Both the position numbers and the translations under genes were made by a program. The notes under the pieces are model-generated. The model did not search any database. It was given only the letters and a program-made list of their open reading frames with translations, and was not told the origin of the DNA. A DNA stretch of 40,184 bases, taken from NCBI GenBank assembly GCA_002898795.1, contig BEIG01000019.1, positions 1-40,184 on the forward strand, written 5' to 3'. Positions within the stretch are counted from its first letter, which is position 1. The number at the start of each line of letters is the position of its first letter. The stretch is from a bacterium HR30 (GTDB taxonomy: Bacteria > Desulfobacterota > Binatia > HRBIN30). This document shows, piece by piece, positions 7,626 through 32,200 of this stretch.

Positions 7626-9122
7626 CTACCGCCAGCGCGCGCCACCCAACCGGACGAGCTCAGAGTGCAGATCAGAGATCGTCTGTGCCGCGTCGCGACG
7701 GCGGTCGAGCGCACGTGGAATTCCCCCCGCATTGGCGAAGCGCTCGATGTCTTGAAGACCGGGCACGTCGCGGCTCGTCACCCCCAAAGCTACGCACTCC
7801 GGCGGCGCCTCGCGATCTACCGTCAGCACCGGCAACTGTGGGAACGGACGCGGATTGTCTGTTTCCAGGCGCACGCGATCGAATACGTCGAAGAAAATAT
7901 TCGCATTGCGATCGCGCATCGTCAGCGGCGGCAGTCGAAACAGAAACTCCAGGAGCGCAGGGTACGAGCTGTGCTCGTACAACGTGGAAGAGACAAAGCC
8001 CCGCCGCGCCCATGGCGACAGAACCAGCGCTGGCACCCGTGGTCCCAGCGCGCCGAAGCCTTCGGCTGCGCGTTCGTCGGGCACGGTGGGCGGCGGCACA
8101 TGATCGAAGAATCCACCGTGCTCGTCGTACGTGAGAAGAAACAGACTGCGCCGCCACTGAGGACTTGCTCCCAATCCGCGAACCACCGCGGCCACGAAAG
8201 CTTGGCCCAGTTGGATGTCGTGCGGCGGGTGATCGTCGTTGATCCCAAATCCTGGTTCTACCACGCACACCGGAGGAAGCGTCCCAGCACGAGCGTCTTC
8301 GAAAAACGCTTGGAGTGGCAACAGGCGCGTCCTCTGACCACGCAGGCTCGCCCAGAGGGCCAAAAACGGGAGATCCGTGTAGTAGTACTTCCACTCGATC
8401 CCGGCCTCGTTCAACACATCGTAAATGGTGCGGAAGCGAAACCCCGGTGGGTTAGGAAAGTCATTGTTTTTCCGGCCATCCGACTGGGCGGCATGGAGGT
8501 ACATGCGATTGGGCCATGTAGGGCCACGCACCGAACAAAACCATCGCTGGCAGAGAACAAATTCGTCTGCCAGCGCGTAGTAGATCGGGAGCTGGTGGCG
8601 TTGGTAGAAACCCATCACCTGGTCGCCATGCGTTGGCCCGACAGCAGCCCAATGTTCCCGCACGAAACCATCCATCCGGCCATCGTTGACCTGACGAAAG
8701 CTCGCTTCCCAACCGTGCGGGGGATCTTCGACGCAGCGATCGGTCATCGGGAATACGGACACCATTGTTCCATCGGGCCGAGGGTTGGCAAATGTGGCCT
8801 TTAACCCATCCACAGGCCGGCCTTCGATCAAAGAGCGCGCGCCGAAGTAATGGTCGAACGTACGGTTCTCCATCATCACCAACACAACGGTGTCGATCTT
8901 CAGTTCTTCTGGAGTGAGCGGCCTCGCCTCCCCGCTCAAACCGCCTTCGCCATCGTCACCACAACTCGAAATCCAAGGAGCCAAGGCAACGGCTCCAGCG
9001 GCGACACCGATTTTCTTCAATGCATCGCGGCGCGAAACTCCCTTGACTGTGCTCTCGGACCTCTTTTTTCTCCGGCCTGCTCTACGATCCCGCTTCACCG
9101 TCTTCACCTCGTGCGGCGCCAT
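7626..9122 (-). CDS. Tat-exported lipoprotein phosphoesterase (phospholipase C/AcpA family)
   Basis: 498 residues of the PF04185 phosphoesterase family, which covers non-haemolytic phospholipase C and AcpA acid phosphatases. The N-terminus has a twin-arginine signal (SRRDALKKIG, residues 30-39) followed by a lipobox (ISSCG, Cys54), so it is probably exported folded and then lipidated. Family motifs seen: ENRTFDHYFG (85-94, metal ligand Asn86 and nucleophile region), NDDHPPHD, TYDEHGGFFDHVPPP and YEHSSYPALLEF. Whether it cleaves phospholipids or phosphomonoesters cannot be told. No Shine-Dalgarno is visible; instead the ATG sits in a short inverted repeat (9116-9131). It stands apart from the upstream operon (271 bases) and the downstream protease. 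Confidence 0.92.
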   Translation of the reverse strand: MAPHEVKTVKRDRRAGRRKKRSESTVKGVSRRDALKKIGVAAGAVALAPWISSCGDDGEGGLSGEARPLTPEELKIDTVVLVMMENRTFDHYFGARSLIEGRPVDGLKATFANPRPDGTMVSVFPMTDRCVEDPPHGWEASFRQVNDGRMDGFVREHWAAVGPTHGDQVMGFYQRHQLPIYYALADEFVLCQRWFCSVRGPTWPNRMYLHAAQSDGRKNNDFPNPPGFRFRTIYDVLNEAGIEWKYYYTDLPFLALWASLRGQRTRLLPLQAFFEDARAGTLPPVCVVEPGFGINDDHPPHDIQLGQAFVAAVVRGLGASPQWRRSLFLLTYDEHGGFFDHVPPPTVPDERAAEGFGALGPRVPALVLSPWARRGFVSSTLYEHSSYPALLEFLFRLPPLTMRDRNANIFFDVFDRVRLETDNPRPFPQLPVLTVDREAPPECVALGVTSRDVPGLQDIERFANAGGIPRALDRRRDAAQTISDLHSELVRLGGARWR

Positions 9123-9393: not shown

Positions 9394-9801
9394 CTACTGC
9401 TCTCTTCTGGCGCGGAGCTCTCGCCAACGCACCCGCTGCTCGGGATCGAGCACCCGGAGCGCGTCGCGATCGGCCAAGACCCGCAACCGCCCGCGCTCTT
9501 GAGCTAGGGCGGACCAATCGCTCCGTCCGCTCGCCGAGGCGTCGCGTTCCGCGGCAGCCATGCGCTCTGTCAGTGCACGCCAGGTGCTTTGCGCGCGGCG
9601 CAAAATCTGCTCGACCTGTCCGCGCTGTTCGGCGGAGAGATGTAAAACCTCAGATTGCCTGAGAATCGCGCCGGCCAGCCACTCTGGCTCCTCCAGCTCG
9701 CTTGCATCAGACCGCACGGCTTGGCCGGTCGCTAGCAGGAAAAGAACAACAGCGCCGAACAGCCGTGCAAGCCGCACGTTTGCTCGTTCCGCAGACACCA
9801 A
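9394..9801 (-). CDS. Small periplasmic Spy/CpxP/ZraP-like protein
   Basis: 135 residues: a hydrophobic signal segment (ARLFGAVVLFLLATGQAVRS), then an almost wholly helical, charged mature part with LSAEQRGQVEQILRRAQ and LDPEQRVRWRELRARR. The two LxxEQR elements match the LTxxQ repeats of Spy/CpxP/periplasmic heavy-metal-sensor proteins, which are stress-induced chaperones or metal sensors. The start codon is TTG at 9801 or GTG at 9798; neither has a strong ribosome site. Its start lies 6 bases after the cytochrome c stop, so it is probably translationally coupled and last in the operon. A signal peptide plus helices is weak evidence for the family. Confidence 0.7.
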   Translation of the reverse strand: MVSAERANVRLARLFGAVVLFLLATGQAVRSDASELEEPEWLAGAILRQSEVLHLSAEQRGQVEQILRRAQSTWRALTERMAAAERDASASGRSDWSALAQERGRLRVLADRDALRVLDPEQRVRWRELRARREQ

Positions 9802-9807
9802 ATGCGC

Positions 9808-10419
9808 TTAGTGCTTTCCCGGAGCTAGAGGCACACCTTTGCGGGTTGAAATAATGTAGGCTTCCAGGGCCTTCATTTTTTCGTCATCGTCACTGAGGCG
9901 AGGACCCTCCATCGGATTTTCGATGCACCAGTTAATCATGTCGCGCAGCAGGGCGATCCGTTTCAATTGTGTTTGGAATTTGGGGTAGGTCTCCGGGTGC
10001 GTGTTGCTCGCGTCGGGATGGCACATGTCGCATGAGATCCCGTTCGTTCCTAACTCCGGCGAGTGGAACAGTTTGTAGCCCTCGTCGATGGTGCGTTTCA
10101 GTTCCGCCTCCCAGACGCGCATTTCTCTCTCGGTGTGGGCCGCTCCCCCATGTGCCAGCACTTTGTTCTCTTCGTATTTCCGCATGAGTTCGTCCGCCAC
10201 CCCCCGTGCTTGCTCCGGCGACATCCTTTCCCCAGCGGCAACGCCGGGAACTACGACACTCGTTTGGCCATCGCACAAGCCAACCACCTTGCTCTTACCA
10301 TCCGGCGCAGGGGGCAGCTCATGTTTTACCGGTTGTTTTGCCCCGACGCGCAAGGCAAACACTACGGCACAAATTGCCGCGCTGATAAGCCCAAGAAAAC
10401 CAACTGGACGCATCATCAT
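9808..10419 (-). CDS. Mono-heme cytochrome c, periplasmic
   Basis: 203 residues. N-terminal hydrophobic segment (VGFLGLISAAICAVVFALRVGA) serving as signal or anchor, then one c-type heme site CDMCH (Cys130, Cys133, His134). The stretch INWCIENPMEGPRL (about 162-175) and the following DDDEKMKALEAYI resemble the SoxA/TsdA-type cytochrome domain, in which a Met or Cys near this place is the distal heme ligand (Met170 or Cys165 here). GGAG lies 6 bases before the ATG. It is downstream of the metallophosphoesterase (43 bases) and just upstream of the Spy-like gene. It is a plausible electron donor for the peroxidase in the same operon. Confidence 0.85.
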   Translation of the reverse strand: MMMRPVGFLGLISAAICAVVFALRVGAKQPVKHELPPAPDGKSKVVGLCDGQTSVVVPGVAAGERMSPEQARGVADELMRKYEENKVLAHGGAAHTEREMRVWEAELKRTIDEGYKLFHSPELGTNGISCDMCHPDASNTHPETYPKFQTQLKRIALLRDMINWCIENPMEGPRLSDDDEKMKALEAYIISTRKGVPLAPGKH

Positions 10420-10462
10420 GGTGTTCTCCTCCCTGTGCTAGCCACGGCTTGCGGCGGCTGCG

Positions 10463-11611
10463 TCAGTACGAGGGCCAGTCGACTCGGCCCTGCAACGGCT
10501 TGGCCAGCTCGGCCATACCCTGCTTGCCACGGCGAACGTGGTCGAAGGTCACGGTCATCGGATTGCGATCCCAGAGAACGTAATGCTTGTCGGCCTGACC
10601 ATCGGGACGCATGTTCACGCTACCCCACCCGCACCCATCGAACTGGTTGAACGGATCGGCTCGGACCATTTGAACCGTTAGCTCCGGGATCCCCTGCGGT
10701 GCGTACGGCCACGGCCAGGCAGTGGAGAGCACGCCGTGGAAGGTGATGTTTCGCAACCGGTGAGTGAGCACCTGATGCGTGTGGGCATGAATGACGGTAA
10801 CGGTTTCGAAGGGCGCCAAAATTTTATGCACCTCTTCAGCGTCCTCGGTCCAAAAATTCCATGGTCGGTAGTACTTGTAGAGGGGCGAGTGCGAGAAAAT
10901 GACGATTGGGGTCTTTTTGTCGACCTTGGCTAGATCCTTTTTCAGCCACTCTCGCTGCTCTTCGCCAACCATGAAGGGACGGCCGTTGGGATTGTCTAAC
11001 TGAGCCATGGCTAGCATCCGCTCCATGGGTGTCATCTTGGGCTCAGTCCAGTAGTCTTCCACGATCACGGAGTTCAGCACGATAAAGTGCACGCCTTTGT
11101 GGTCGAACGAATACGTGGGCTCGCCGAACATCTCGCGCCACTTCTCCCCGAGGTCCAGGTACCAATCGTGCTCGCCCACCATCATGCGCACTGGCGCCTT
11201 GAGCTGATCGAGCAACTGTTTACCGAGGGAAAGTTCTTCGGGTTTACCGAGCTGCGCCAAGTCGCCCCCGAAAAGCACAAAGTCGGGCTGCGGGTCGAGG
11301 GCGTTCACGTCATCTACTGCCTTCTGACACGCCTTGACGAAGCGATGGTTCAACCCCTTGTCCAAGATGTGGGTGTCAGAGATATAAGCGAAGGTAAACT
11401 TGGGTTGGGATTCTTTTGCTTCCGCCACGCGGATGAGTTGGAACGAGTGAGGGGGGAAGCCTTTCCAAAATGCGGTTGCAACCGCTGCAGCTTTTGCCGC
11501 GGTCTTGAAGAAATCGCGGCGACTCAACTTCGGTAGTTCCGCGAAAAAGCGTTCCCGTTCGGCAAGATACTCCTGCTTCTTGCGTTCCATTGGAAGCACG
11601 TACTTGGCCAT
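10463..11611 (-). CDS. Tat-exported metallophosphoesterase
   Basis: 382 residues from the ATG at 11611, which has a strong AAAGGAGGG site; the open frame extends to 11710 but overlaps the peroxidase gene. The N-terminus is MAKYVLPMERKKQEYLAERE, then a twin-arginine motif (LSRRDFFKTAAK, about 29-40) and hydrophobic stretch, so the enzyme is exported folded. Calcineurin-type metal motifs: SDTH (Asp79, His81), GGDL (Asp117), GEHD (147-150), SHSP (His241), and HAHTH (275-279). In the third motif the usual Asn of GNHD is Glu. Substrate unknown. It starts 29 bases after the peroxidase stop, inside the ECF-sigma-led operon. Confidence 0.9.
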   Translation of the reverse strand: MAKYVLPMERKKQEYLAERERFFAELPKLSRRDFFKTAAKAAAVATAFWKGFPPHSFQLIRVAEAKESQPKFTFAYISDTHILDKGLNHRFVKACQKAVDDVNALDPQPDFVLFGGDLAQLGKPEELSLGKQLLDQLKAPVRMMVGEHDWYLDLGEKWREMFGEPTYSFDHKGVHFIVLNSVIVEDYWTEPKMTPMERMLAMAQLDNPNGRPFMVGEEQREWLKKDLAKVDKKTPIVIFSHSPLYKYYRPWNFWTEDAEEVHKILAPFETVTVIHAHTHQVLTHRLRNITFHGVLSTAWPWPYAPQGIPELTVQMVRADPFNQFDGCGWGSVNMRPDGQADKHYVLWDRNPMTVTFDHVRRGKQGMAELAKPLQGRVDWPSY

Positions 11612-11640: not shown

Positions 11641-12780
11641 TCACGGGGCTGGAGCGGCCACCAGTTCCCCGGCTCGCGTTTTGCGCGACAGTTCCTTCAG
11701 TTCCTCCCAATCGAAATTCTTTCCACCGCTCTCGTCGGTCAGGGATTTCATGAATTCGATGATGTCGGCGATTTCCTCCTTCGTGAGGTTAAGAGGTCGC
11801 ATTCCCCCGTCGAGATTCGGGTTCGGCTCGCCACCGCGGTTATAAAAGTCCATGACTTCTTCCAGAGTCTTGAGGCTACCGTCGTGCATATACGGCGCGG
11901 TGAGAGCCACGTTGCGAAGCCCAGGAGTTTTGAAGGCACCGATATCTTTGGGTTCGCGGGTCACGATCCAGCGCCCGAGTGCTTCGATGCCTGGCTTGTG
12001 TGCCAGGGTCGACTCTGCCTCTTTGTCGCCCCGCGCTTGGATGGCCTGTGCTTCGCGTGCCAGTTGTTCGAAGTTCCCCTTCATCGCCACACCGATGTTG
12101 TGGAACTTGTTGTCCGTGAAGTAGGGGAAAGACCTGTTGAACTCGTGGCAAGTGACACACCGAGCTTTCCCTTGAAAAAGTTGAAAGCCACGCTTGGCAG
12201 CATCGCTCAGAGCGTTCTTGTCGCCAGCGAGAAAACGATCGAACGGAGAAGAAAACGGCGCCAATGTCCGTTCGAACGAGGCGATGGCCTGCACGATGCG
12301 GTCAATCGTCACTTCGGGCGAGCCAAATGCTTTCTGGAACAGCGGAGGATAGTCCGCGATGCTGGCCACAGCTTTAACCACGGCGTCGTGCGAAGGTTGG
12401 CCCATTTCCACCGGATTGATGAGGGGCTGTTTTGCCTGCTCCTCCAGCGTGGGCGCGCGGCCATCCCAAAACTGCACCTCGCTGAAACCGGCGTACAGCA
12501 CCGTGGGGGAGTTTCGCGCCCCGGCTTGCCCGCGAATCCCCGTGGCCACCGCTTTCCCGTCAGAAAAGCCGTGCAACGGGTCGTGACAGGAAGCACAAGA
12601 AACGGTGCCGTCGGCGGACAGTCGCTTGTCGAAATACAGCTTTTTTCCCAAAGCAACTTTTTCCGCTGTCAAAGGATTCTCTGCCGGGATCGAAGGTTCC
12701 AACACGCCGTTGGGTAGGTACAAGGCAAAGGCACCCAGCAAGGTTGCAACCGAGTTCTTCCATTCCCGCTTCAAGCCCAT
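11641..12780 (-). CDS. Di-heme cytochrome c peroxidase (CcpA/MauG family)
   Basis: 379 residues from the ATG at 12780, after GGAGGGGAG. Signal peptide, then two c-heme sites: CASCH (62-66) and CVTCH (208-212). Other family features: RNSPTVLYAGF, FWDGRAPTLEEQA with the conserved acidic residues near the active heme, and APYMHDGSLKTLEEVM (Met298 as candidate distal ligand of the high-potential heme; MauG has Tyr there). This points to a bacterial cytochrome c peroxidase, which reduces periplasmic H2O2 with electrons from a small cytochrome c, rather than MauG-type protein oxidation. It starts 13 bases after the anti-sigma stop. A mono-heme cytochrome two genes down could be its donor. Confidence 0.93.
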   Translation of the reverse strand: MGLKREWKNSVATLLGAFALYLPNGVLEPSIPAENPLTAEKVALGKKLYFDKRLSADGTVSCASCHDPLHGFSDGKAVATGIRGQAGARNSPTVLYAGFSEVQFWDGRAPTLEEQAKQPLINPVEMGQPSHDAVVKAVASIADYPPLFQKAFGSPEVTIDRIVQAIASFERTLAPFSSPFDRFLAGDKNALSDAAKRGFQLFQGKARCVTCHEFNRSFPYFTDNKFHNIGVAMKGNFEQLAREAQAIQARGDKEAESTLAHKPGIEALGRWIVTREPKDIGAFKTPGLRNVALTAPYMHDGSLKTLEEVMDFYNRGGEPNPNLDGGMRPLNLTKEEIADIIEFMKSLTDESGGKNFDWEELKELSRKTRAGELVAAPAP

Positions 12781-12793
12781 TGGCTCCCCTCCG

Positions 12794-13603
12794 CTAAAGC
12801 TCCCCGGTGACAACGGGGAAATCCACCAGCCGATCGCTCTTTACGTCCGTATGGCAGCTCGCACAGGCGCGAGCCCCGTCATGCTCACCTTCGCTAACCA
12901 AAACGTACGACAACTCTCCATGATCCCACAAGACCAATTTCCGACGTCCTACGGTAAACGTGTGGAACTTAGCACCATCGAGGACTACTGAGTGACGGCC
13001 GCCGGGGTCCTGCCCAGCAGCACCGATCAACAGCAGCGCAGCACCTCTTGGCGATCGGTACGTCACCGCCCCGAGCGACTCGCTGCCCAGGCGCACCACA
13101 CCCGCGCCCTCGGGTACCAGCCCCTCCGGCGAGCGCAGCGCACCGCGGGAATAGAACGGCAGACGCTGCGATAACCACTGATCCAGCGTGGCCACGTCAT
13201 GACTCCGCACGGACAAAACCAGCTCGTTTCGCAAAAGCTCTTCGTAGAGTTCGGCAGCAAGCGCCACGCGCGGCGGCAAGGTCCCCGCGGGCCGAAGCAT
13301 CTGCACGACGATCCAGAGCACTACCACCGCCACAGAGCCCGCCACGGCAACTAGGGCTCGCAGGAAAGGACGGGCAGTTGTTTGTTCCATCAACGCTTTT
13401 CGGATTTTATCTTCCAGCGCCGGCGGACACGGAACACGTGGATAGGAGTAGCGCACCAACTCAGCCAGCCACTGTTCGAGTTGTAAGCGTCGGGCGCACG
13501 TAGCGCATGCCTGTAGATGCTCTTCGAGCGGTAAAGCACGATCGACACTAATCTCGTGATCGATGTACGCGGAGATGTATTTTCGGAATTCGCTACAGCT
13601 CAT
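12794..13603 (-). CDS. Transmembrane anti-sigma factor with a C-terminal c-type heme motif
   Basis: 269 residues. The ATG at 13603 begins one base after the sigma stop (TGAAATG), which implies translational coupling. The N-terminus has the zinc-finger anti-sigma (zf-HC2) pattern: HLQACATC (His29, Cys33, Cys36) within MSCSEFRKYISAYIDHE. One membrane helix follows (about 80-103: FLRALVAVAGSVAVVVLWIV), then a periplasmic domain of about 165 residues. Near the end, where related anti-sigma factors read on from LSYVLVS into a plain helix, this protein has ARACASCHTDVKS: a CxxCH heme-attachment motif (Cys247, Cys250, His251), 18 residues from the C-terminus. It would be exposed in the periplasm, where c-type heme is attached. 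Start choice: the longer frame to 13663 overlaps the sigma gene and adds 20 residues of no recognisable fold. Confidence 0.85.
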   Translation of the reverse strand: MSCSEFRKYISAYIDHEISVDRALPLEEHLQACATCARRLQLEQWLAELVRYSYPRVPCPPALEDKIRKALMEQTTARPFLRALVAVAGSVAVVVLWIVVQMLRPAGTLPPRVALAAELYEELLRNELVLSVRSHDVATLDQWLSQRLPFYSRGALRSPEGLVPEGAGVVRLGSESLGAVTYRSPRGAALLLIGAAGQDPGGRHSVVLDGAKFHTFTVGRRKLVLWDHGELSYVLVSEGEHDGARACASCHTDVKSDRLVDFPVVTGEL

Positions 13604-13604
13604 T

Positions 13605-14162
13605 TCAGACACCACCCCGCTGCTTGGAGCTCCGCTGCCAACCTCGTTCCTCCAGTTGGCCAAGCAGTTGGGACCGCAGCAAGGAGCGCCCGCGGGCTAG
13701 CCGCGACATTACGGTACCGACTGGGCAACCTAGGATCTCGGCAATTTCCTTGTAGCTGAAACCCTCTACGTCCCGCAGATAGAGAGGGGTACGGTACACC
13801 TCTGGAAGCGCTTGGAGTGCTTGCCGCACTTCCTTTGCCCACTCTCGCTCCACGACAACCTGCTCGGGATCGAGTGTGCTGCTCTGGTCCCCGACCATAT
13901 CGATTTCCGGTGCAGCCTCGAGGTTGCGGGCGCGCTGGCGGCTCAAGTCGATCCACGCGTTGCGCAACACCACGAATAGCCATGTGCGTACGTTTGGACG
14001 GCCTTGGAGCTGGTCCCACCATTCGACCGCTTTCAACACTGTAGCCTGCACCAAGTCCTCGGCATCGCTGGGCCCCGCCAGCGAAAGGGCAAAGTTGTAC
14101 AGCGACGAAAGATGCGGAAGCAGCTTGCCCGCAACGGTACTCTGTCTCCATCGCCATGCCAC
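13605..14162 (-). CDS. ECF-type RNA polymerase sigma factor
   Basis: 185 residues from a GTG at 14162. Region 2 is PSDAEDLVQATVLKAVEWW and VRTWLFVVLRNAWIDLSRQ; region 4 is ALQALPEVYRTPLYLRDVEGFSYKEIAEIL followed by GTVMSRLARGRSLLR, the helix-turn-helix. These are the usual sigma-2 and sigma-4 blocks with nothing in between, as in group 4 sigma factors. It heads a run of six minus-strand genes with gaps of 1-43 bases and is probably autoregulated, though I could not identify its promoter by eye. The divergent gene at 14588 may be a target. The start is the weakest part of the call. Confidence 0.93.
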   Translation of the reverse strand: MAWRWRQSTVAGKLLPHLSSLYNFALSLAGPSDAEDLVQATVLKAVEWWDQLQGRPNVRTWLFVVLRNAWIDLSRQRARNLEAAPEIDMVGDQSSTLDPEQVVVEREWAKEVRQALQALPEVYRTPLYLRDVEGFSYKEIAEILGCPVGTVMSRLARGRSLLRSQLLGQLEERGWQRSSKQRGGV

Positions 14163-14587
14163 TCTTGGGCAACCTCGCTCTTTACCGTTTTCGCCTGAAC
14201 AACGAATGAACCGTGCCGTTTATTCCCACTCACCCGTTAATATCCATTGCCCAATTTTTCCCTGCGGGCAACGGCAGGGAAATGCTAGGCGATCTGGGTG
14301 GAGGCATCGTGCCAGCATTTCCCCACGCTGGCCAGCACCCGCCCTCGAGCCGCAGATTCCAACCATGGCGACGCGCTTTAGCCGATGGCGTCGAGCGAAC
14401 TTGCGCCTTTCCGCCGACACCCACCAATGTCGTCTTCCAAAGCTGAAGGTTCGGTTGGCTACGTTCTGAGCCCAGTAAACGCAGGAGCCGGACGACCTCT
14501 CGCCAAGTTTAAATGCTGCCATGATTATCGTTGCCAAACGGTTCAGATTTGTTGTAGACACGCCAGCCGAGGGAGGGGACAACAACC
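14163..14587. other. Divergent regulatory region, no gene
   Basis: 425 bases between the ECF sigma gene (minus) and the propeller/cytochrome gene (plus). It should hold promoters for both. It contains the 9-bp inverted repeat listed separately. Frames crossing it have no ribosome site or recognisable protein. Confidence 0.6.
14257..14282. promoter_or_regulatory. Perfect 9-bp inverted repeat upstream of the sigma gene
   Basis: TTTCCCTGC (14257-14265), 8-base spacer, GCAGGGAAA (14274-14282). It lies about 95 bases before the sigma start and about 305 bases before the divergent gene, between convergently pointing -10/-35 space rather than after a gene end. That makes an operator as likely as a hairpin; there is no T-run suited to a terminator. 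Confidence 0.4.
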
Positions 14588-17500
14588 GTGAAAAGAGGGA
14601 TCGCGTGGGTCGCAGCAGTCCTGGTGTGTTGTGCGCCGAGTTTGCTCCTACCGCCTCGGGCAAGCTGGGCGGGGTCGTATACGTTGTTCGAAAGCGGGCC
14701 AGTGCGGCCTTTGGCGCTGTCGCCTGATGGGACGAAACTTTTCGCGACCAACATTCCCGATAGCCGCCTGGAAATTTTTTCCATCGGTGCCAACGGAGTA
14801 CTGACCCACCTCGAGTCGGTGCCTGTAGGGCTCGAACCCGTCGCTGTCGCTGCACGAACGAACACGGAAGTGTGGGTCGTCAATCACCTCTCGGACAGTG
14901 TCAGCGTCGTCGATCTATCGAGTTCGCCTGCGCGGGTAGTTCGTACGTTGCTCGTCGGCGACGAGCCACGGGACATTGTCTTTGCGGGCCCCGGGAAAAC
15001 TCGCGCGTTCATCACCTGTGCCCACCGCGGCCAAAACAACCCCAACGACCCGCAGTTGACTACAGCAGGCGTAGGACGAGCCGACGTGTGGGTATTCGAT
15101 GCGACGAATCTTGGTAACACGCTTGGCGGCACACCTTTGACCATTCTCACGCTGTTCGGTGACACGCCGCGGGCCCTGGCCGCAACGCCAGATGGTACAC
15201 GCGTGTACGCCGCCGTTTTTCACAGCGGAAACCAAACCACCGTGATCAACGAAGGCTTGGTTTGTGACGACAGCACTAAGACAGATACGGTCGTGGCTGA
15301 ACCATGCACCGTGTCAGGAGTCAGTGTGCCTGGGGGTCTGCCCCTGCCAACGACGGATCACACTGGAGCCCCTGCACCCGAGGTTGGCCTGATCGTGAAG
15401 TGGAACGGTTCGTACTGGGCCGATAAAGCGTGCGCCAGCGGCCTCAAGTACGGATGGAGCTGCAAAACAGATGCGGATTGCCCAAACAGCGTGTGCGGGC
15501 GTAATTGGAACAATGCGGTCAAGTTCAATTTGCCGGACAAAGATGTTTTCGTCATCGACGCGACGGCAAATCCTCCGGTCCAACTCCCCGGCAGCGCGGG
15601 CTTTTTCACTGGGGTGGGAACGATTCTGTTCAACATGGCCGTGAACCCGGCAAACGGGAAGGTGTACGTGACGAACTTCGAGTCCCGCAACGAGTTCCGG
15701 TTCGAGGGTCCTGGGATTTACGCGGCGCAATTTGGCGGCACCACGGTGCAAGGACACCTTGCAGAGTCGCGGATCACCGTGTTGTCGGGGAGCAGCGTTC
15801 TGCCCCGACACCTGAACAAGCATATCGATTACGACCAACGGCCAGCACCAGCGGGCGTGAAGGACCACAGTTTAGCTACCCCGCTCGATATGGCCATTAC
15901 CAGCGATGGGCAAACGTTGTACGTCGCGGCATTCGGATCGAGCAAGGTCGGAGTTTTCAACACGGCCCAGCTCGAAAACGACACCTTCGTGCCCAACAAT
16001 GCCAACTACATCAGTGTCAGTGGTGGGGGCCCAGCAGGTCTGGCCTTGCACGAAGGGTTACAGCGTCTTTACGTCCTCACCCGGTTCGACAACGGCATCG
16101 CCATCGTCGATACAGCCACGAAAACCGAGATCGACCACGTCTCTCTCTACAACCCTGAACCCCCGAGCGTGGTCAACGGCCGCCGTTTCCTCTACGATGC
16201 CTTCTACACTTCCAGTAACGGCGAGGCAGCCTGTGCTAGCTGCCACATCTTCGCTGACCTCGACAGCCTCGCTTGGGACCTAGGCAATCCCGACGACGAG
16301 ACGCAAACCAACCCCCTACCCGTGAAACTTGCCTTTGCCATTGGGAGCGGGACGTTTCGCGACTTCCACCCGATGAAAGGTCCGATGACGACGCAAACTT
16401 TACGAGGCTTGGCCAATCACGGAGCGATGCACTGGCGAGGCGATCGCAACGGGGGGAGTTCACAACCGTTCAGTGCAGAGCTCGCGTTCAAAGCGTTCAA
16501 CGTGGCCTTTCCCGGTTTGCTGGGACGTACGAGTGAACTCACCCCAGCCGAAATGCAAGCATTTACCGACTTCATTTTGCAGGTGAAATTGCCCCCTAAC
16601 CCCATCCGCAACTTGGACAACTCACTCACCGCATCCCAGCAAAATGGGCGCAACTTTTTCTTTGGACCGCGCCGAGCCGACGGTCTCCCATTCGGGACGG
16701 ATGGTTCCGACAATGCTTTGGGGCATACCTGCAACGGTTGCCATGTGACCAACCGTTCCCAAGGGTTTTTCGGCACTGATGGTAAGGCCAGCTTCGAAAA
16801 TGAGCCGCAAGTGATCAAAATTGCTCATTTGCGCAACCTTTACCAGAAGGTGGGCATGTTCGGCATGGCGGCGGTGCCGTTCTTCAATTCGGGGGACAAC
16901 GGGCACAAAGGCGACCAAATTCGCGGCTTTGGATTCCTACACGACGGCAGCGTCGACACCCTATTCCGGTTCCTCAATGCAACCGTGTTCAATGACCAAA
17001 ACGGCGCTGGCTTCAACGGCGGCGACCAGCAACGCCGCGATGTGGAACAATTCCTTCTCGCCTTCGACTCGGATCTCTTCCCCATCGTTGGCCAGCAGGT
17101 AACGCTGACAAGTAACAACGCAGCGCAAGTGAACGCGCGCATCGACCTCTTGATTCAACGGGCGGCGGCGGGCGAAACGGACTTGATCGTCAAAGGCCGC
17201 TACAATGGCCAACTCCGCGGGTGGTACCGCACCGCAGTGGGCACGTTCCAACCGGATCGTGCAGGGGAAGCCGTATGGACCGACAGCGCCTTACGTACGG
17301 TAGCGGCCACTCCTGGGCAAGAGCTGACTTACACCGCGGTCCCGCTTGGTTCGGCTGTTCGTCTCGGTGTGGATCGTGACGAAGACACGTTTTTCGATCG
17401 GGACGAACTCGACGCCGGTTCGGATCCTGCCGACCCTAACAGCACGCCGGCGCCGGCAACGGCAACGCCAACGGTCACACCAACGGCGACCAGAACGTTG

Positions 17501-18415
17501 ACCCCGACGCGAACGCCGACTGCCACACCGACCCACACTCCTCCTCCCACGTTTACCCCCACACCAACTGCGACCCACACGCCACTGCCGACGCAAACGC
17601 CCACGAATACACCGCTCCCCACATCGACCCCCACACCATCCGCTACCCCGACCCACACGCACACCCCCACGCTCACGTTTACCCCCACCCACACGATCAC
17701 ACCGGGTGGACCGACTCTGACCCCAACCAATACCCTTCCGCCCACCGAAACTCCGACGGAGTCGCCCACGGCAAGTCCCTCCACTACTCCAACGCCGACG
17801 GAAACTCCCACCCCTGTGCCAACAGAAACCTTTACCCCGGAACCCACGGCTACTCCCACTACAATGCCCGACGTGTTTTGTAGCGGCACCAGCCAGCTAA
17901 CAAATCCGCGGCTCAAGCTAACGAAGCTGTCCACCCCAGCAGGGGACGACAATCTAACGGTGAGCGGTGCCTGGCTGCTGTCTCCAAACACACCACCTCC
18001 TAACCCTGTAGCGGAGGGAATCCGGTTTGCTGTATACGATTCGTTTGGGTCGCTAATCTTTCAAAGAATCGTGCCCGGCGGAGCAAGGCTATCCCAATCC
18101 ACCCCGGGTTGGACTCTCAGCGCCGATGGTCACGTGGCGAAATACTTTGACCCGGAGGGCATACAAGGCGACATCAAGAAAGTGGTGGTTTCGAGCTCCC
18201 GCCGCACACCTGGCCTCTTCACAGTGAAAATCACCGGCAAGCTCGGTAATTTCGTGGTTGCTCCCACTCAGCTCCCTCTTCAGGTCGTTATCGTGCTCGG
18301 CAACCAAGGCCGCGCTGTACTCGGTCAGTGCGCCAGTTACACTTTTAGGCCTAGCGGTGGTGTCCGACCGCGTTGTGACTTCTCTGTAACGGGGAGTACC
18401 CTCGTTTGCCGCTGA
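14588..18415 (+). CDS. Secreted beta-propeller/di-heme cytochrome protein on a Thr-Pro stalk
   Basis: 1275 residues, GTG start after GAGGGAGGGGAC. Signal peptide to about residue 28 (ASWA). Residues about 30-540 are YncE-like propeller blades ([35 protein letters not shown]). Next comes a CcpA/MauG-like half with two heme sites: CASCH (549-553) and CNGCH (715-719), including [21 protein letters not shown] and [22 protein letters not shown] thrombospondin-3-like Ca-binding stretch follows ([19 protein letters not shown], about 932-950), then a Thr-Pro stalk (953-1092) and a C-terminal beta domain (1093-1275, first Cys VFCSG). An insert at about 280-305 has several cysteines ([12 protein letters not shown]). 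I infer a surface or periplasmic redox protein held away from the membrane. It is divergent from the sigma operon and may belong to its regulon. Confidence 0.88.
17444..17863 (+). repeat. Thr-Pro coding repeat (stalk)
   Basis: About 420 bases of imperfect short repeats of the form ACNCCNACN, coding mostly Thr-Pro with Ala, His and Ser. The strand is strongly C/A-rich on one side, and the opposite strand stays open as a Val-Gly shadow frame. Probably a flexible, possibly O-glycosylated stalk; length may vary between strains. Confidence 0.85.
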
Positions 18416-22650: not shown

Positions 22651-23211
22651 TCCCTCTCGTCTCCTGCAGTTCCGAGCGGTCAACACCGCTCACCCTCCTA
22701 GAAGGCGACGGAATGTTTCCCCGAGGTCGTCTTTCCTTTGAGGTCCGTGACAGAGCCTTGATCACAAGGCCGACCCAACCTGATGGAGCTCCCTCATCGT
22801 CGCGGCGCACGCCGCGCCTATGGCCGCTGCCCTTCCCCTCGAACGATGCTCGGGCAGCACGTGGTTGTTTTCGCCCGCGGGGCCAAGGCTCATTGGGGCG
22901 AAGTGCGGCGTTCTGTCCACAAGGCGCATCCGCCTCGGAGGAGCATCTGCGGCGTACGCAATTCCCACTGGCGGCTTCGCCCGGTGCGACCAACCCATCG
23001 ACCGCAAGTTCAAACGTGCCGGTGGGCACGGAGTACCCCCGGTGAGCTAGCAGCGAGTTCTCACTGAAGGATTCGAAAATTTGGCTTGATCGTCACCGGC
23101 CCACACCTTAGCGTGCATTGTGATGGTTCAATCGCGAGGGACTCAACCTTGTTTGGGCACCTGTGGCCCGCGATGCAGATCATCAACGGAGAGGAGCGAA
23201 GAGTTTCTGTG

Positions 23212-26200
23212 ATGACGGAAAGGCGAGCTGTCACGTGTTTTCGATTGGGCTGGGGCGTGTTTTTGACATTTTTGTTCTTCGCAACTCCCGTTCCAGCGGC
23301 GCCGATTCCGAGTGCGTCGCTTAACGTCCCGGCTGAGATTCCCATCGGAGAGTCGTTCTCCTTCACTGTAACTTTCGATAACTCATCCCTGACCGATGCG
23401 GGCTACGGCCCATACATTGACCTCGAGCTCCCTACAATCGGGGCCGACGGTGCCGGTTCGGCAACGGACGACGGGATTGTATTCGTTTCCGCGACCTACC
23501 TTTCGTTTCCCGTGAATGTCCAGGTTCTGACCTGTCCGGTTGCTTCCCATCCCTACACCGGTCTTGCCGTAAGCTGCACGGCGGGCAACCAGTACGTCGT
23601 GATGGAGCTCCCATTTGGCAGCTTCACGAGCGACCAACCGCCCGCCTCCATCACGGTGAATGCTTCACTGAGCAATTTGGCGGATTTGGGCGTGCCCCTG
23701 ACGATCCGCGCGAAGCCTGGCTTTCGGTACGGCGCAGACCCACTCGACAATCCAGGGTCGGACCCGCCCATCACCGGAACGACGCAAAGCGCAGACGTCA
23801 CTCCGACACTCCTAACGTTATCGAAATCGTACATCGGCCCGGAAAACGAGACGGCCACCGGCCCTAACTTCCCTCGGCGCTACACCGTCACGGTGGATGT
23901 TGCCAATGGGCAGACCGTCTCCAACCTAGACGTACGTGATTTTCTTCCTCCGAATGTCGCATTCCTTACGGTCGTGTCGATCAGCCCAGGCTCGGGGAGT
24001 GTCATGTTGTCTCCTCCGAGCGGCGTTCCTTCGAACCCCCCAAACAACGAGTTACGGGTACGCTACCCTTCCATCGTTGGCGGACCAGGCGCGGATGCGA
24101 CCGTTGTCTTCGAATTTTTCGTGCCTCAGTTAGATGCCAGCGGGAACCCAGTAATCAACCCAAACTCAGGTGACGACGCAATCTCCGCCAATGAGGCGCG
24201 CGCGGAAGGGGATTGGGTTCCAATTGACAGTCGCGATCCCACCACGCATGTCACGCGCGACCCGGCCGGTCCGGAGCACATCCTCAATGATCGGTCGGTT
24301 GCTGTCCAAAAGTCGGCAACGATCGTAACGGACACGGGTCCCGCAGGTCCTTCTCCTGGGGACGTACTGGAGTACACGCTCGAATTCCAAATTTCCGATT
24401 TCTTTGCTTTTCGGAACCTGCGCATCGAGTATGACCAGCTATCCGACGGGCAGCGCTTTGACAGCACATTTACCCCAACGCTGTCGGTGACCGAAAACGG
24501 TTCGACCACCTCGGGACCGTTCGACGCCAGCAACTACTCGGTCACCGTGAACAGTCCCGGCACCGGCACCTCCGATATCTTCTTCGATATATCCGGAGAG
24601 CTCATCCTGCGGGGCTTTTCCGGGATGCTTCTCGGCGGTCTCGTCCCCGATGGTGGGTCACCTAACGACGGGCCCACGGTTGGCACTATACGCTACCGCG
24701 CCTACATCCTCGACCAATACTCGGACAATTTCCCCTCTGGCGACCCGAGCTTGAACAGCGGGGATAGTCTTTCGAACTCCGTTCGCATTGTCGGTGACGT
24801 GCTCGACAACGCGGCACTGACGCCAACCGGCTTCAACGAGGACGATGGGAGTAGCGCTGGTTTCACGATCGCAATCGGGTCGCTCGCGAAGTCGATCTAC
24901 GCGCGCAACGGGGTGGTCGGGCCGGTGACACAAATAGCCCCAGGAGACACCGTGACCTTTCGGCTGCAGTATCAAATACCCACGGGCGACGTGGAGAACT
25001 TACGCCTGGTGGACTGGCTCCCCTTGCCCGTTCTAAACGCAACCGAAGTAACGACGTTCAACGACACCACCTCCGCGACACCGCCTGCTGCGGGGGCGGC
25101 CCATTTTGGTCCAGCCGACACGTTCCGTGCGCTGTCGGGCATCGTGCCCACCCTGACCACGGATGCCACCGGGAATTGGGTTCAGTTCAGCTACGGTACC
25201 TTCGCTAACCCCGCCAATACATCCGCTGTGGTGGACGTGCTGTTCACCGTTACGGTTTCCGCTGCTCCTTTCGCCGACGGTCTTTACTTGACCAACCAAG
25301 TTCGAGCGTTGGAACAAAATACTACCGTCCAGACCACAACCACAGATGCCATCGTCCAGTTTCAACTAACGGAGCCGGTCATCCGTTGGTCGAACATTAA
25401 AGGTGCCGTCGCCAGTTCGAATCCGGCCGCAACGTTCAGCCCGGCAGCTGTCGGACCCGTGACTTTCACTGCGCCTGGCAGCGGCTGCCCGCGATTTTCC
25501 GGAACCATTCACTCAAATGGACTTAGCGCGAATCCCGTGCGCAGCGACGTAGCCAACGTGGATGCTGGCGATTTGGTTACCTTTGCCATCATAGTGGAAA
25601 ACACGGGGACAGGGTTGCACGGCGCGTTCGACATCAGGCTGCGCGACACGCTGCCGCCGGGATTCTCCATTCCTTCGGGCGGACCGAACTTGTGCGTTAC
25701 CGACGGAACCGGGGCGCCCATTTCTTATGTGAGCCTCGGTGGAGGATTATTCGATCCCGCGGGGGGAATCGAGCTTGTCGACCCAGGACCTACGTCAACA
25801 CCCGCCGGCGCATTAGATCCCTACGACCCAACAAACGGGCGGAACATCGCGGTGGTGACCTTTGACCTGCGGCTGGATGGTCCGGGCGACACCACGCCGG
25901 TGGCACCGCGGCAAACCTTGGTCAACACTGGAACTTTGTTCAACTACGCTGGAACGGAAGCGGGCCCAGATCATACCCTGACCGACGCCAACGATACGGC
26001 TTCCGCCGTGGTCGCTTCCCCGGCAGTGCAGAAGTCAATCCAGTCCGTGGTTCCGAACGGCACTGGGGGCTCCAGTGTCACCGCGGGCGATGTCATTACG
26101 TATTCAATCAACGTCACTTTGCCAGAGGGACGAACCCCGGGTTTAACCCTCACCGACCGCCTGCCAGCAGGGTTCGAATACGTATCAGGCTCTCTCACCG

Positions 26201-29200
26201 TGATCCCCGGAACCTTCAATGGCTCGGTCACTTCTTCCCCTTCCGTAACGACCTCTGGCAGTATTTCTACCGGGCAGCTTGTGACCATCAGCTTTGGCGA
26301 CGTTTTGGTCAACGCCGACAACGATTCGACCAATAATACCTTCCAGGTGACGCTAGCGGCTCTCGTCCGCAATGTTGCTCAGAACTCTGGCGCGTCGAGC
26401 CCGCAAACCAAGACCAATCGGGTGGATTTGAATTTTACCGGCAATCCCGGCGGGGCGGTTACTTCTACGGTCAGCACGACGTTCCGGGAGCCACGGTTAA
26501 CCCTGAGCAAGAGCATGAGCCCGCCGAACCCTGACGCTGGAGACGTGGTTACGGTGACGTTAACCGTAACAAACACCGGCACCTCGCAGGCGCACGACGT
26601 TGTGCTTTCGGACACGTTGCCGGCTGATCTGTTCGATACCACCCCGACCGTATCGGTCAACGAGGGAACGACGCCATCGGGGTTCACGTACTCCTACACG
26701 GCTCCGACCGTAACGTACACCGGAGGCCCGATTCCCGCTGGCGCCATCCGCACGTTCACGTTCACCACTCGTGTCCGCAGCGATGTGGTAACCGGCTCAA
26801 CTTACGTCAACGGTGCTAGCGTTTCTGGGGACTCGCAGGCTGGCTCCGTTTCTGAGCAGCGCACAACCACAGCCAATGCCACTGCCAGCGTCTCCGTGCC
26901 GTCAACCACCGCAAGTAAGGATGTTTTCGCGACGTCTGAGCCGAGCACCGACCCTGGGGACGCGAACGCCAACACCAACCCACCGGTTGCCATCGGCGAA
27001 GTGGTTACTTTTCGGCTGAACTTCACCTTACCGGAAGGCGTCACGCGCTCGGTGACCTTGGTCGACGCTCTGCCGCCTGGACTGCAACACATCCCGGGCA
27101 CGGCCTACTTGTCGCGCAACAGCCTTGCCCTCGTCAGTGCAGCCGATCCGGGTGGGATTAACGCGGCTGGCACGGGCGTCCCAGTTGCTGTCACGATCAC
27201 TGGTACTTCTGGAGAAGTCACGCTCGACCTTGGTGACGTGACAAATAGCGATACGGACAATACCACGCTCGAACAGTACACCCTCACGCTGAGTGCCGTC
27301 GTGGAAAACATTGCGACGAACAATGCAGGCACGAGCTTGGTCAACGTTGGCCGTATCCGTTTCCTCAACTTCAATGGCGTACAGCAACAAGTGAACACGA
27401 ACACACGGACCGCTCATGTCGCGGAGCCTGTGATTCAGGTCAGTAAATCGGCAAATCCCACGAGCGTGCAGGGAGGCGACACGGTCACGTTCACCCTCAC
27501 GATTGCCAACTCCGCATCCGGAACCAACGCAGCAAGCGCGTTCGACTGGGTCATCACCGACCCGTTACCAGCTGCGTACGTTTCGCCAGCCGTCGCTTCG
27601 GTCGATCCTGGCGGATCCGGTGCCTCCGCGGGCGCATCGTTCGCGGGCAACACGCTCACGGTCACGGTCGATCGACTCGATCCAGGAGAGACTGTCACCG
27701 TCACATACACGGCCACGGTCGATCCAGGAGTGCCCTACAACTTGGTGGTCACGAACACTGCTGCTGCAACTGCGACAAGCCTGCCAGGGACAAACGGTAC
27801 TGGCGGGGTAACACCTGGAGCATCAGGATCGCCCACGGGCGAGCGCACAGGCAGCGGAGGGGTCAACGACCTGACGGCGTCGGACAACGCCCAGGTTACC
27901 GCACAAGGCCCGGTGCTGTCCAAGATCACAGTCAACCCACAAAGCTACGTCCCGGTGGAGGGTACCGCGACATTTCGCATCGTCGCCGGAGTTCCTACGG
28001 GCATGACCAACAATCTGGTGATTACGGATACGTTGGCGAGCGGCTTAGGGTACGTGCCTGGCTCGCTCTCCGTCGTTTTGCCACCGGGAGCCACTGCCTC
28101 GAACTCGCCGCTTACAGACACGAACCCCTCCTTTTTCACACAATCCGGGTCCGTTCTGCAGTTCAACTTCGGTAACCTTAACGCCCCAAGCCCTGGCAAC
28201 ATCGAAATCAGCTATGACGTTCGCGTACAAAATATTTTGGCCAATCAGGACGGCACGTTGCTCGGAAACTCAGCCGTCATGACATTCCAGGATCCCAATA
28301 CCTTGGGGACTGTCACCGTGGGCCCGGTATCGACACCTGATCCGGTGCGAGTGGGCGAGCCGAATTTGGACATGACCAAAGTCGTTGTGTCTGGCGGCGT
28401 GGGAGCCGATGCCGGAGACACGGTGCGCTGGCGTGTGCAGATCGGAAATGTTGGCCACACGACGGCCTATCGGTTGGATTGGCGAGACACACTGCCGAAT
28501 GGCCTCTACCAAATCAGCAACGTGACGGTGACCCCCTCGGGCGGCAACGTTTTCCTCAACGGAACCACCACCACCGTGACTGCCGCGCATGCCGTGATCA
28601 GCACGACGACGAATACGAACGACACGATCTCGTTGCCTCTACTGCAAATGGAGGCCGGAGCGTCGCTGGAGGTCGAATTCGATTCCGTCCTGATGAACAC
28701 GGTCACACCAGGGCAAGTGCTCAACAACGTCACGAGGGGAACTTACACCAGCCTCGTCAGCGGCGGGCGCGACAGCTCTAGCAATGGCGGAAACGTTGAC
28801 GATGACGACGATTCCCAATTGAACAACTATGCGGAGTCGGCAAGCCAGGCCATCACGGTAGCGTCGAGCGTAGCCGTGGATAAGAACGTTTCCGCGCCCA
28901 GTTACACTATCGGCGAAGAGGCGGAGTACACCGTGCGTATCGATGTGATCGAAGGCACGGTTCCAAATTTGGTCCTGACCGACGTTTTGCCGGTTGGCCT
29001 GAGCTACACCAGTCACACAATCTCGTTTGGCAACATGGGTATGGTCGCCGCTAACCCAGCCTACAATACTCGCCTCGGTACAGGGCAAACGGTGAAATTC
29101 CAGTTTGGGGACCTGGTCAATCCTGCCAACGGCATTCTCACGGATGATTTTGTAGAGGTGCAAATCCGTGCTCGTGTGGACAACGTCCCTGCAAACCAAA

Positions 29201-32200
29201 ATGGCACCGTCTTGCGCAATGGGGAGCAAGCTGAGGGCTCGACCGTAACGGTTGAATACGGAAGCGGAGCACCGACGACAGTGACGTTCGATCACGATGC
29301 GGGTACGCCGGGAATTCAAGGTGTCCCCATTATCGTCGTGGAGCCGGAACTGGAGTTGGAAAAGACTGTCAGCCCAGCGAACCAGTCGTTAGGAGACGAA
29401 GTCACTTATACGATTACGGTGCGCCACCTTGCCACCAGCACGTCGACCGCTTACGACATCGTCATCCAAGACACGCTACCGAGTGGGCTGGCCTATGTCG
29501 CTGGCTCAGCGACGTTGCCCCCCGGAGATGTAACGGTTTCTGGCCAGACACTGACCTTCCGCGTTTCCTCGCTCACCGTGGTCGCCGGTTCGACGACGTT
29601 GACCTATCGCGCACGGGTGGAGCCGGATGCGGTCGTAGGAGCGCAACTGAGCAACAATGCCGTAATGACTTGGGCCAGCCTTCCGGGGGCCACTGGTGCG
29701 CCCGATAGCGGCCGTACGGGCGATGGCGGTTTGAATGATTACACGACCAGTGACTCCACGCCCGTTACGGTAGGCGGCACAGCCTTCATCGAGGCGGTCA
29801 AGCAAGTCGTTGACCTCAACGGAGTCGAGGTCCTGCCGAACGATCTGCTCGAGTACACGGTGGAACTAATCAACGGGTCGGAGCCCGTGGACAATGTCGT
29901 CTTTACCGATGTGCTCCCGACGTACGTGACGTATGTTGCAGGTACGCTGACATCGACCGCAGGTACCGCTTCGTTCAGCAGCGGGACGATTACCGTCAGC
30001 GTCGCGAGCCTGGCGCCAGAAGAGACAGTGACGGTCACCTTCCTCGTTGTCGTGAACCCAGGCACGCCGAAAGGAACGGTCATCGCGAACCAAGGGATTG
30101 TCGACTCGAACCAGACGAGCCCGGAGCCGACAGACTGGGACGGCAACGACGCCAACGGCGACCAGCCTACCGTTGTCATCGTCAAGAACAGCGCGCGAGG
30201 AAGGCTGCGGGCCACCAAGACCGCGAGTTTGCTCATGGATACCGTGCCACCCTCGGGCACAATCAATACCGGAGATACCGTTCAGTTCACCGTGACCCTG
30301 TTCAACGATGGACCAGTGACCGTAGAACAAGTAAGGTTCTCGGACGTTGTTCCAGCCGGTCCGCCGGGAATCGTCGTCACAGCGGTGAGTACGACCCAGG
30401 GCACGACGCCTCCTCCCTCCAACAACGTCGTCATCTCGGACATTGGCTCCATCGACCCAGGGGCATCCGTAACCATTACGATCGTCGGAACGGTCAATGG
30501 TGACGGACTCATTTGCAACCAGGGTATAGTCCAAGCACGCCAACCGAGTTCGCTGAGCACCGACGAGAACGGCAATCCACTCGATGGCGCCCAGCCAACG
30601 TGCGTGAATGCAGCACCGGCCGGCGAAGTTGGCGAGCCGGAGTTGGTGACGGACAAGTCCTGGCGGCTTGTTTCTGACACCAACCTGAGCGGTGGAGTCA
30701 ATCCTGGGGAGGTTCTGGAATACACATTGGCGGTTGTGAACCGAGGATCCAGCACGGCAACCGACGTGCGAGTGGACGACACCTTGGCTTCGGGGATCAC
30801 GCTCATACCGGGAAGCGTCACCACCAGTCAGGGCTCAGTGGTGAGTGAAAATCCGCTTTTGGTCAATGTCGGCATCCTCGAGCCTGGTGGAGTGGCCGTC
30901 GTGCGTTACTTGATGACCGTCGATTCTGTTTCGCCCGGAACGGAGGTCACCAACACGGCCATAGCGCGGAACGCGGAAGGGGATACCGCTTCTGCCTCCG
31001 CCAGTTTCACGGTGCAAACACCGTTTATTGATCTTGCCATCGAAAAGTCGCACTCAGCAATGTTCCGCGTGGGTCAAAACGGAACCTATACAATCGTTGT
31101 GCGCAACGTCGGTATGCTTCCAACCAATGGTCCGATTACGGTTGCAGACACCCTACCAAACGGGCTCACCTATGTTTCCGCTAACGGCACGGGCTGGTCT
31201 TGCGGCGTCAGTGGTCAGACGGTCAGTTGCACGTACACGGCAAGCTTGCCACCAGGACAAAGCCGGACAGTTGTGCTCGAAGTCGCTATCGGCAATGCTG
31301 CCTACCCAACCGTAACGAACGTTGCGCTGGTGCAAACAGCCGGCGATGCCAATAGCGCAAACAACACTGCCTCTGATGCAACCCTAGTCCGACTTGCGCC
31401 AGCGGGAGCGCCACCCGACTGTGGCGTGGATTTGCGCAAGAGCCACACGGGAACAATCGAGCCCGGCGCTGAGTTAACCTACACGCTCGCCTGGACAACC
31501 AACTGCATGGAGCCGCTCGTCGACTTGATTCTTACCGACTATCTACCCTCCGCGTTCGACATCATTAGCGTGACGACGAGCGACGGTACGGTCACACTCA
31601 GTGAGCAGACCGTTACCATCCGCATCCCCAGCTTGCCTCCTGGCCCCGCGCAGGTGGCCACCATTCGAGTTCGGGTGAAGTCCGATGTAACCAGTGGAGC
31701 GCGAATCGAGAACACTGCCGTGATCGAAGATGTATTTGGCCGCCGTTACTCTGCTACAGATTCGGGCCGTGTGCGTGGCCTGCTGACCACGCGAAAGCGG
31801 TGTTTCCTACGGGCACAACGCTACGCCGCGCCTGGACGCTACATCACTTACACCAACCGTTACTGGAGCCTGGACCCGGGTATGCGTCGAGTATCCCTCG
31901 AGTTACCTGAATGGCTCGAAGTCCAGTCCATCTACCCAGAACCGTCTCAAGTCGATGGAAACTTATACGTCTGGGACGAACTCCCGCCGACTGCGGGTAA
32001 AGTACGCATCACCACGAAGGTTTCACTCGATGCGCCAGACGGACTCCTTCTCCCGGCGATCGCGGAGGTAACAGACAGTGGTGGGGCCGCCGAGGTCGGG
32101 CGCTGCACACACGAGTCGGTTGTACGCCGACCGCAACGCTTGTTCGGCACGCTCAAGGGGAACAGCAAAATTTTCTCCAACGCAGCCATGGTGTACGGTG

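Follow-up and report, generated by a model that had tools for sequence, protein, structure and literature searches.

The genes considered here lie on the reverse strand of a 40,184-nucleotide stretch of DNA from bacterium HR30, referred to as the window, in the order sigma factor, anti-sigma factor, MauG/MbnH-like peroxidase, metallophosphoesterase, SoxA/TsdA-like cytochrome and LTXXQ-like protein. The ECF sigma factor has 185 residues, a GTG start and matches to Sigma70_r2 and Sigma70_r4_2 (13605..14162). The anti-sigma gene (12797..13603) is followed by a di-heme peroxidase gene with two CxxCH motifs (11641..12780, ATG at 12780). The peroxidase matches CCP_MauG at E 5.7e-62 with the frame read from 12786, and falls below the cut-offs of both TIGR03791 and TIGR04039. 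The metallophosphoesterase (10463..11611, ATG at 11611; Metallophos E 5.3e-17) probably bears a Tat signal, judging from the residues SRRDFFK; the TAT models match it weakly and under their cut-offs. A mono-heme SoxA/TsdA-like cytochrome c with a CDMCH motif (9808..10419; PF21342 E 1.4e-12) precedes a small LTXXQ-like protein (9394..9801; PF07813 E 4.7e-4, below cut-off), with which the operon probably ends. Two further features of the window are a divergent beta-propeller protein at 14588-18412, matched by the Lactonase model and containing two CxxCH motifs and a long Thr/Pro-rich stretch, and an open frame of about 3129 residues at 23086-32472, delimited by a crude gene caller. In the available part of one report, a gene of Starkeya novella named YVTN is placed close to a sigma gene of RpoE1-like type (PMC6527743).

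The anti-sigma frame (12794-13603, reverse strand) starts with ATG, stops with TAG and codes for 269 residues. The preliminary description had read it as a zinc finger at His29/Cys33/Cys36, one membrane helix and a periplasmic domain with CASCH 18 residues from the C-terminus, and all three elements are correctly placed. The zf-HC2 zinc anti-sigma domain covers residues 3-37 (13493..13597), including Cys3, His29, Cys33 and Cys36, and scores 34.7 bits against a curated Pfam cut-off of 22.2 (E 1.8e-8). The most hydrophobic 20-residue segment of the protein, residues 84-103 (13295..13354), is its single membrane helix and corresponds to helix 80-102 of an AlphaFold2 model; about 165 residues come after it. 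CASCH, a predicted c-type heme attachment motif, occupies residues 247-251 (12851-12865) and is followed by 18 residues. Compared with the RsrA model TIGR03988, the protein reaches 41.4 bits and stays under the cut-off of 62.5. A profile of its family matches the solved structures of RsrA (5frf, E 1.1e-7) and RsiW (5wuq, E 0.0042).

Eight relatives of the same architecture came from searches at the levels of family, order, class and phylum. Together with the window protein these nine anti-sigma factors span six genera and three families: two relatives belong to the same genus (63 and 51% identical), one to another genus of the family (29%) and five to two other families (22-29%). In all nine, the anti-sigma gene lies directly 3' of an ECF sigma gene. 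His29, Cys33 and Cys36 are invariant in the alignment of the nine. Cys3, presumably the fourth zinc ligand as in RsrA-type proteins, is kept in five and absent from the four f8 proteins.

CxxCH is likewise kept in all nine proteins, at 22-63% identity to the window protein, with middle residues that vary among members (CASCH, CSSCH, CAVCH and CIVCH). It is C-terminal to the one hydrophobic helix in every case, which by the inferred topology places it on the exported side. The motif arose in 70 of 200,000 shuffles of residues 106-269 and in 675 of 200,000 shuffles of the whole protein; the periplasmic count and the ninefold conservation together rule out a chance motif. A frame error, or a motif borrowed from the neighboring peroxidase, was also rejected: the anti-sigma frame has its own TAG (12794-12796), and the peroxidase frame reaches its first ATG 13 bases later. 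The window genome contains four zf-HC2 matches, three of them over cut-off, and only the window protein among them carries CxxCH.

The two cysteines of the motif are the sole periplasmic cysteines in all nine members, which makes zinc binding or a disulfide improbable; the absence of other cysteines and the conservation of the histidine favor heme over a site for zinc or thiol chemistry. Cytochrome c assembly proteins, sought through PF01578, were found over cut-off in all eight genomes searched (the nine CxxCH genomes minus G520). Judged from these features of the sequence, the most likely fate of the CxxCH tail is attachment of a heme by the cytochrome c maturation machinery. Besides the histidine of the motif, no periplasmic His or Met is invariant across the nine aligned members; His228 is kept in five. 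Since no distal ligand is invariant, the sixth coordination site may be open or water-bound, which could suit a ligand sensor.

Relatives with and without the motif indicate how the tail may have arisen. A scan of the 148 genomes of the class gave 14 matches, nine with CxxCH and five without; the five have a periplasmic domain of similar kind. The CxxCH clade is small (9/148 genomes). Two phylum scans, each of 395 genomes with at most nine candidates scored per genome, gave matches in G000, G105 and G368, the second also in G049. The anti-sigma factors of G368 and G049 are two further relatives without CxxCH, and within these scans no CxxCH anti-sigma factor was seen outside the class. A scan of plasmids for anti-sigma relatives gave no match, and one of genome contigs gave a single weak match over residues 26-76. 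The C-terminus of several non-heme relatives is a plain helix such as SDLNRAELQQFADLL. Profile alignment (hhalign) of the nine CxxCH proteins with five non-heme relatives gave 99.2% at E 6e-20 and ends four residues before CxxCH, which marks the motif as a defined addition. In a tree of 20 anti-sigma factors (without the short G005, G467, which the motif filter missed, the second G001 match, L008 and the later G049), a branch separates the nine CxxCH proteins from the rest; its support is moderate (89/90), and it recurs in 88% of 200 bootstrap trees. The profile comparison and the tree suggest that a standard scaffold acquired CxxCH once. Six non-heme relatives (L005, L009, L010, L011, L012 and L024) have two periplasmic cysteines at a spacing of 40 to 44 residues, which are perhaps a disulfide sensor.

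The domain carrying the tail comprises residues of about 108-242 (12878..13282), delimited by the AlphaFold2 model and the alignment to the non-heme anti-sigma domain. The model, built from nine sequences, has a mean pLDDT of 76.8 and is poor at the tail, where blocks have values of 57 and 38. In a second-look structure comparison, ranks 1-6 were C-terminal domains of RseB/MucB with Z-scores of 8.1-8.9 and identities of 11-12%; the best, 2v42_B, has Z 8.9 with an rmsd of 2.5 over 91 aligned residues. The comparison tool cautions that a best Z of 7 to 8 is common, and the top Foldseek match is 1vr8 (E 3.3e-4), with RseB reaching E 0.028. For these two reasons, the likeness of the modeled fold to the C-terminal domain of RseB/MucB is suggestive only.

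A predicted ECF promoter, GGGAATAAA-N14-CGT (14202..14227, reverse strand), lies 39 bases before the sigma start and is the sole match in the genome. Its position upstream of the sigma gene predicts autoregulation. When the pattern GGGAATAAA-N{13,15}-CGT was searched in the nine genomes, G000, G001, G002, G004 and G105 each had one match, always upstream of the sigma gene; the reversed control pattern gave seven matches over the nine genomes and a single match in two of the five promoter-bearing ones. As the pattern was derived from the intergenic regions of these same loci, its presence there is not independent, whereas its uniqueness in the genome is. The strict pattern is absent from the anti-sigma locus of the four f8 genomes and has ten matches elsewhere in them, probably by chance. 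At the f8 loci themselves, the divergent promoter contains GGGAATAAA and, at a similar distance after it, GTC.

The promoter resembles those of the ECF26 group. In the parts available of the cited work, the Sinorhizobium meliloti rpoE1 operon (ECF26) is given the promoter GGGAATAAATCCATAGCCCTCCGTGTCTTATC and the group a consensus of -35 GGAATA and -10 GT (PMC6180224), while another report gives ECF26 boxes as GGAAT and CGTC (PMC6527743). The window promoter conforms to this consensus (-35 GGAATA, -10 GT or CGTC), its -10 CGT agreeing in part. It shares the -35 GGGAATAAA and a like spacing to the -10 with the rpoE1 operon, whose -10 is TGTC where the window has CGT (PMC6180224, in part). A tblastn search of plasmids with the sigma factor gave many rhizobial sigma genes at 34-43% identity among the matches listed. 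Two of four rhizobial plasmid sigma genes have GGGAATAAA-N14-CGT about 35 bases before the annotated start, a count that leaves out the unannotated L122 and L123. The four rhizobial plasmid anti-sigma genes beside sigma relatives have neither CxxCH nor HxxxCxxC. As far as the available text of the S. meliloti studies goes, sulfite and compounds that generate it are linked to RpoE1 and RpoE4 and do not induce RpoE3 and RpoE6, and the RpoE4 targets include sulfite oxidase, cytochrome c and pseudoazurin (PMC3511301). In a second source, also available in part, the signal named for the cognate pair is sulfite, and that for RpoE1-like factors is taurine or tetrathionate (PMC6527743). A third says of the ECF26 group of S. 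meliloti that its mechanism of activation 'remains hypothetical' (PMC6180224, in part).

Sigma, metallophosphoesterase and SoxA-like cytochrome genes adjoin the CxxCH anti-sigma gene at all nine loci, and a MauG gene at five. The preliminary description had proposed asking whether CxxCH is kept together with the HC2 domain, and it is, in nine of nine sigma/anti-sigma pairs adjoining metallophosphoesterase and cytochrome genes. At the four f8 loci, three of them on short contigs, the pair and the metallophosphoesterase operon are divergently oriented, and no MauG gene was seen within 5-19 kb per locus. In the f8 locus checked with Pfam (L030), genes further along the metallophosphoesterase operon encode a SoxY-SoxZ fusion, a multiheme cytochrome and a cbb3-type oxidase. 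The fusion (L030:13397-14224) also matches desulfoferrodoxin over cut-off.

Metallophosphoesterase matches (E ≤ 1e-40) occur in 40 of the 148 genomes of the class, and 39 of these loci were examined, the G442 fragment being left out. Nine have the CxxCH pair, 28 do not over 998 to 5840 bases upstream, and two (L089 and L095) lie at a contig edge with almost no upstream sequence, so that the pair cannot be judged there. No CxxCH anti-sigma factor was found at these 30 other loci, L089 and L095 being nearly devoid of upstream sequence. MauG is present at 29 and the SoxA-like cytochrome at 28 of the 30, with the misses at contig ends; GGGAATAAA occurs at one, L084, in an unrelated place. That the cassette needs the anti-sigma factor was therefore rejected, with 28 of 39 metallophosphoesterase loci lacking the regulator pair. 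There is a weak zf-HC2-like match several kb from the cassette in L068. In L082 (4486-5307), a sigma factor with a C-terminal zf-HC2 domain and no CxxCH lies 3' of the MauG-metallophosphoesterase-cytochrome cassette, and L114 likewise has a sigma factor with zf-HC2 attached C-terminally.

The loci of the non-heme relatives differ in content: none of 13, covering 3 to 16 kb each, has a MauG or SoxA-like gene. One of them, in G444, has a sigma factor, an anti-sigma factor without CxxCH and a metallophosphoesterase in a row (L132:6422-8900). This enzyme is distant (33% identical to that of the window). GGGAATAAA occurs on the same strand at 8843 before the sigma gene and at 7433 before the metallophosphoesterase. 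The surrounding 16 kb yielded neither a CxxCH-containing frame of at least 110 residues nor a MauG or SoxA-like gene. In G442, which belongs to the same genus, the stretch examined has neither GGGAATAAA nor a metallophosphoesterase. Homologues in the same operon context that lack CxxCH had been named at the outset as evidence against a heme sensor, and G444 answers to this in part: its pair adjoins a metallophosphoesterase, with no cytochrome gene in the 16 kb. The absence of MauG, the SoxA-like gene and CxxCH frames makes its context not the same as that of the CxxCH loci. G444 is one exception to the proposal that only the heme form accompanies the metallophosphoesterase, which was rejected, and it indicates that the pair, the GGGAATAAA box and the enzyme type can co-occur without heme. 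This single case counts against a need for the heme tag in such an operon, and suggests that heme and cytochromes were later additions to an existing set of pair, box and enzyme type.

We interpret the window protein as an RsiW/EcfR-like anti-sigma factor that has gained a c-type heme tag and reads the periplasmic redox state or a heme ligand, and give this sequence-based reading a probability of roughly 0.6. In this mechanism the cytoplasmic zinc domain would clamp the sigma factor, one helix would span the membrane and the sensor domain would be periplasmic. The CxxCH tail would replace the last helix of that domain and receive heme from the cytochrome c maturation machinery. A change at the heme iron, whether in its oxidation state or through binding of a small molecule (for instance a sulfur compound, peroxide or NO), could then alter the periplasmic domain and free the sigma factor through proteolysis or a conformational change via the helix. 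The freed sigma factor is predicted to transcribe its own operon from GGGAATAAA-N14-CGT, comprising sigma, anti-sigma, di-heme peroxidase, metallophosphoesterase and SoxA-like cytochrome, so that sensor and operon products would be heme proteins of one compartment. Sulfur compounds are candidate signals on account of the promoter type and the SoxA- and SoxYZ-like neighbors, and peroxide on account of the MauG-type neighbor in five loci; the analogy with sCache_heme suggests NO, and the redox poise of the adjoining cytochromes is a further candidate. Peroxide, NO and CO, which the preliminary description had put forward, are guesses as ligands of the anti-sigma heme. The odds are somewhat better than even that these proteins represent a class of transmembrane anti-sigma factors that senses via a periplasmic covalent heme c, with the last helix swapped for a cytochrome fragment, and so forms a kinase-free switch from heme to transcription.

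In a narrower form of this explanation, the heme would swap electrons with one of two partners, the SoxA-like cytochrome or the di-heme peroxidase, and report the poise of the cytochrome pool rather than a small molecule. The SoxA-like gene in the same or the divergent operon at nine of nine loci, the SoxYZ fusion, multiheme cytochrome and cbb3-type oxidase downstream in L030, and the heme-less sister G444, with a metallophosphoesterase and no cytochromes, all point this way; the lack of a second invariant His or Met as sixth ligand argues against it, and we consider this form rather unlikely. Alternatively, the anti-sigma factor might be stable or active only when loaded with heme, such that the operon tracks cytochrome c maturation or heme supply. 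A bare C-terminal CxxCH without an invariant distal ligand would fit a maturation substrate, and c-type cytochrome genes adjoin the anti-sigma gene at all nine CxxCH loci and were seen at none of the 13 non-heme loci. However, the whole periplasmic domain is conserved beyond the tail, which such a gauge would not need; we consider the idea distinctly unlikely. That there is no heme at all, with CxxCH serving as a thiol or metal site, or left over as a remnant, and signaling by proteolysis as in RsiW, is more improbable still: relatives without CxxCH exist and several carry other periplasmic Cys pairs, but the histidine is kept with both cysteines in all nine proteins at low identity and cytochrome c assembly proteins are present.

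Several known systems resemble the window protein in part. RsrA is soluble and RsiW is not known to carry heme; the window protein resembles both in its cytoplasmic domain, through the profile matches to 5frf and 5wuq. RseB is a separate protein that is not known to carry heme. The likeness of the modeled domain to RseB and MucB, periplasmic regulators of RseA and MucA, is one of C-terminal domain fold. EcfR of S. meliloti (ECF26), as described in the available text, is like the window protein in having an N-terminal anti-sigma domain, a membrane helix and a periplasmic domain with an RsiW-like C-terminal part (PMC6180224). That text does not mention a heme on the anti-sigma factor.

The closest precedent for a gained tag is sCache_heme (DUF3365/Tll0287, GSU0582). 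According to the part of the description at hand, this periplasmic Cache sensor gained a short cytochrome-derived CxxCH on a scaffold usually without one, and heme Cache domains tied to signaling modules bind NO (PMC12889525). There, CxxCH lies between strands of the Cache fold and the output goes to kinases, chemoreceptors and cyclic-nucleotide enzymes, whereas the window protein has a C-terminal CxxCH, another modeled fold and a sigma factor as output (PMC12889525, in part). No Cache chain was recognized among the listed structure matches of the modeled periplasmic domain, a list from which absence excludes nothing. Heme-c sensor domains are known on kinases and chemoreceptors (PMC12889525, in part), and one on an anti-sigma factor would be new, if our reading of the protein sequence is right. 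Full-text literature searches, with subscription journals mostly outside their coverage, found no heme-c anti-sigma factor among the results listed. The periplasmic domain would then be a second example, after Cache (PMC12889525, in part), of a sensor that gained a cytochrome heme tag. The bacteria that carry it may thus read extracytoplasmic heme or redox chemistry directly into transcription. A heme on the anti-sigma factor, if true, would give the signal a chromophore, so that spectroscopy of the regulator could directly follow the binding of ligands and changes of redox state, with the heme-less sister G444 as a natural comparison. The tag would also bear on the question of how ECF pairs of the RsiW/EcfR layout perceive their signal.

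The cassette itself extends well beyond these pairs. The metallophosphoesterase and SoxA/TsdA-like cytochrome (9808-11611 in the window), usually with a MauG-type peroxidase, are widespread in the class. The cassette is possibly a Sox-like pathway in which the metallophosphoesterase replaces SoxB, which is speculation. Related metallophosphoesterases are found on plasmids of Sinorhizobium and Phyllobacterium, beside SCO, hemA and cbb3-type oxidase genes.
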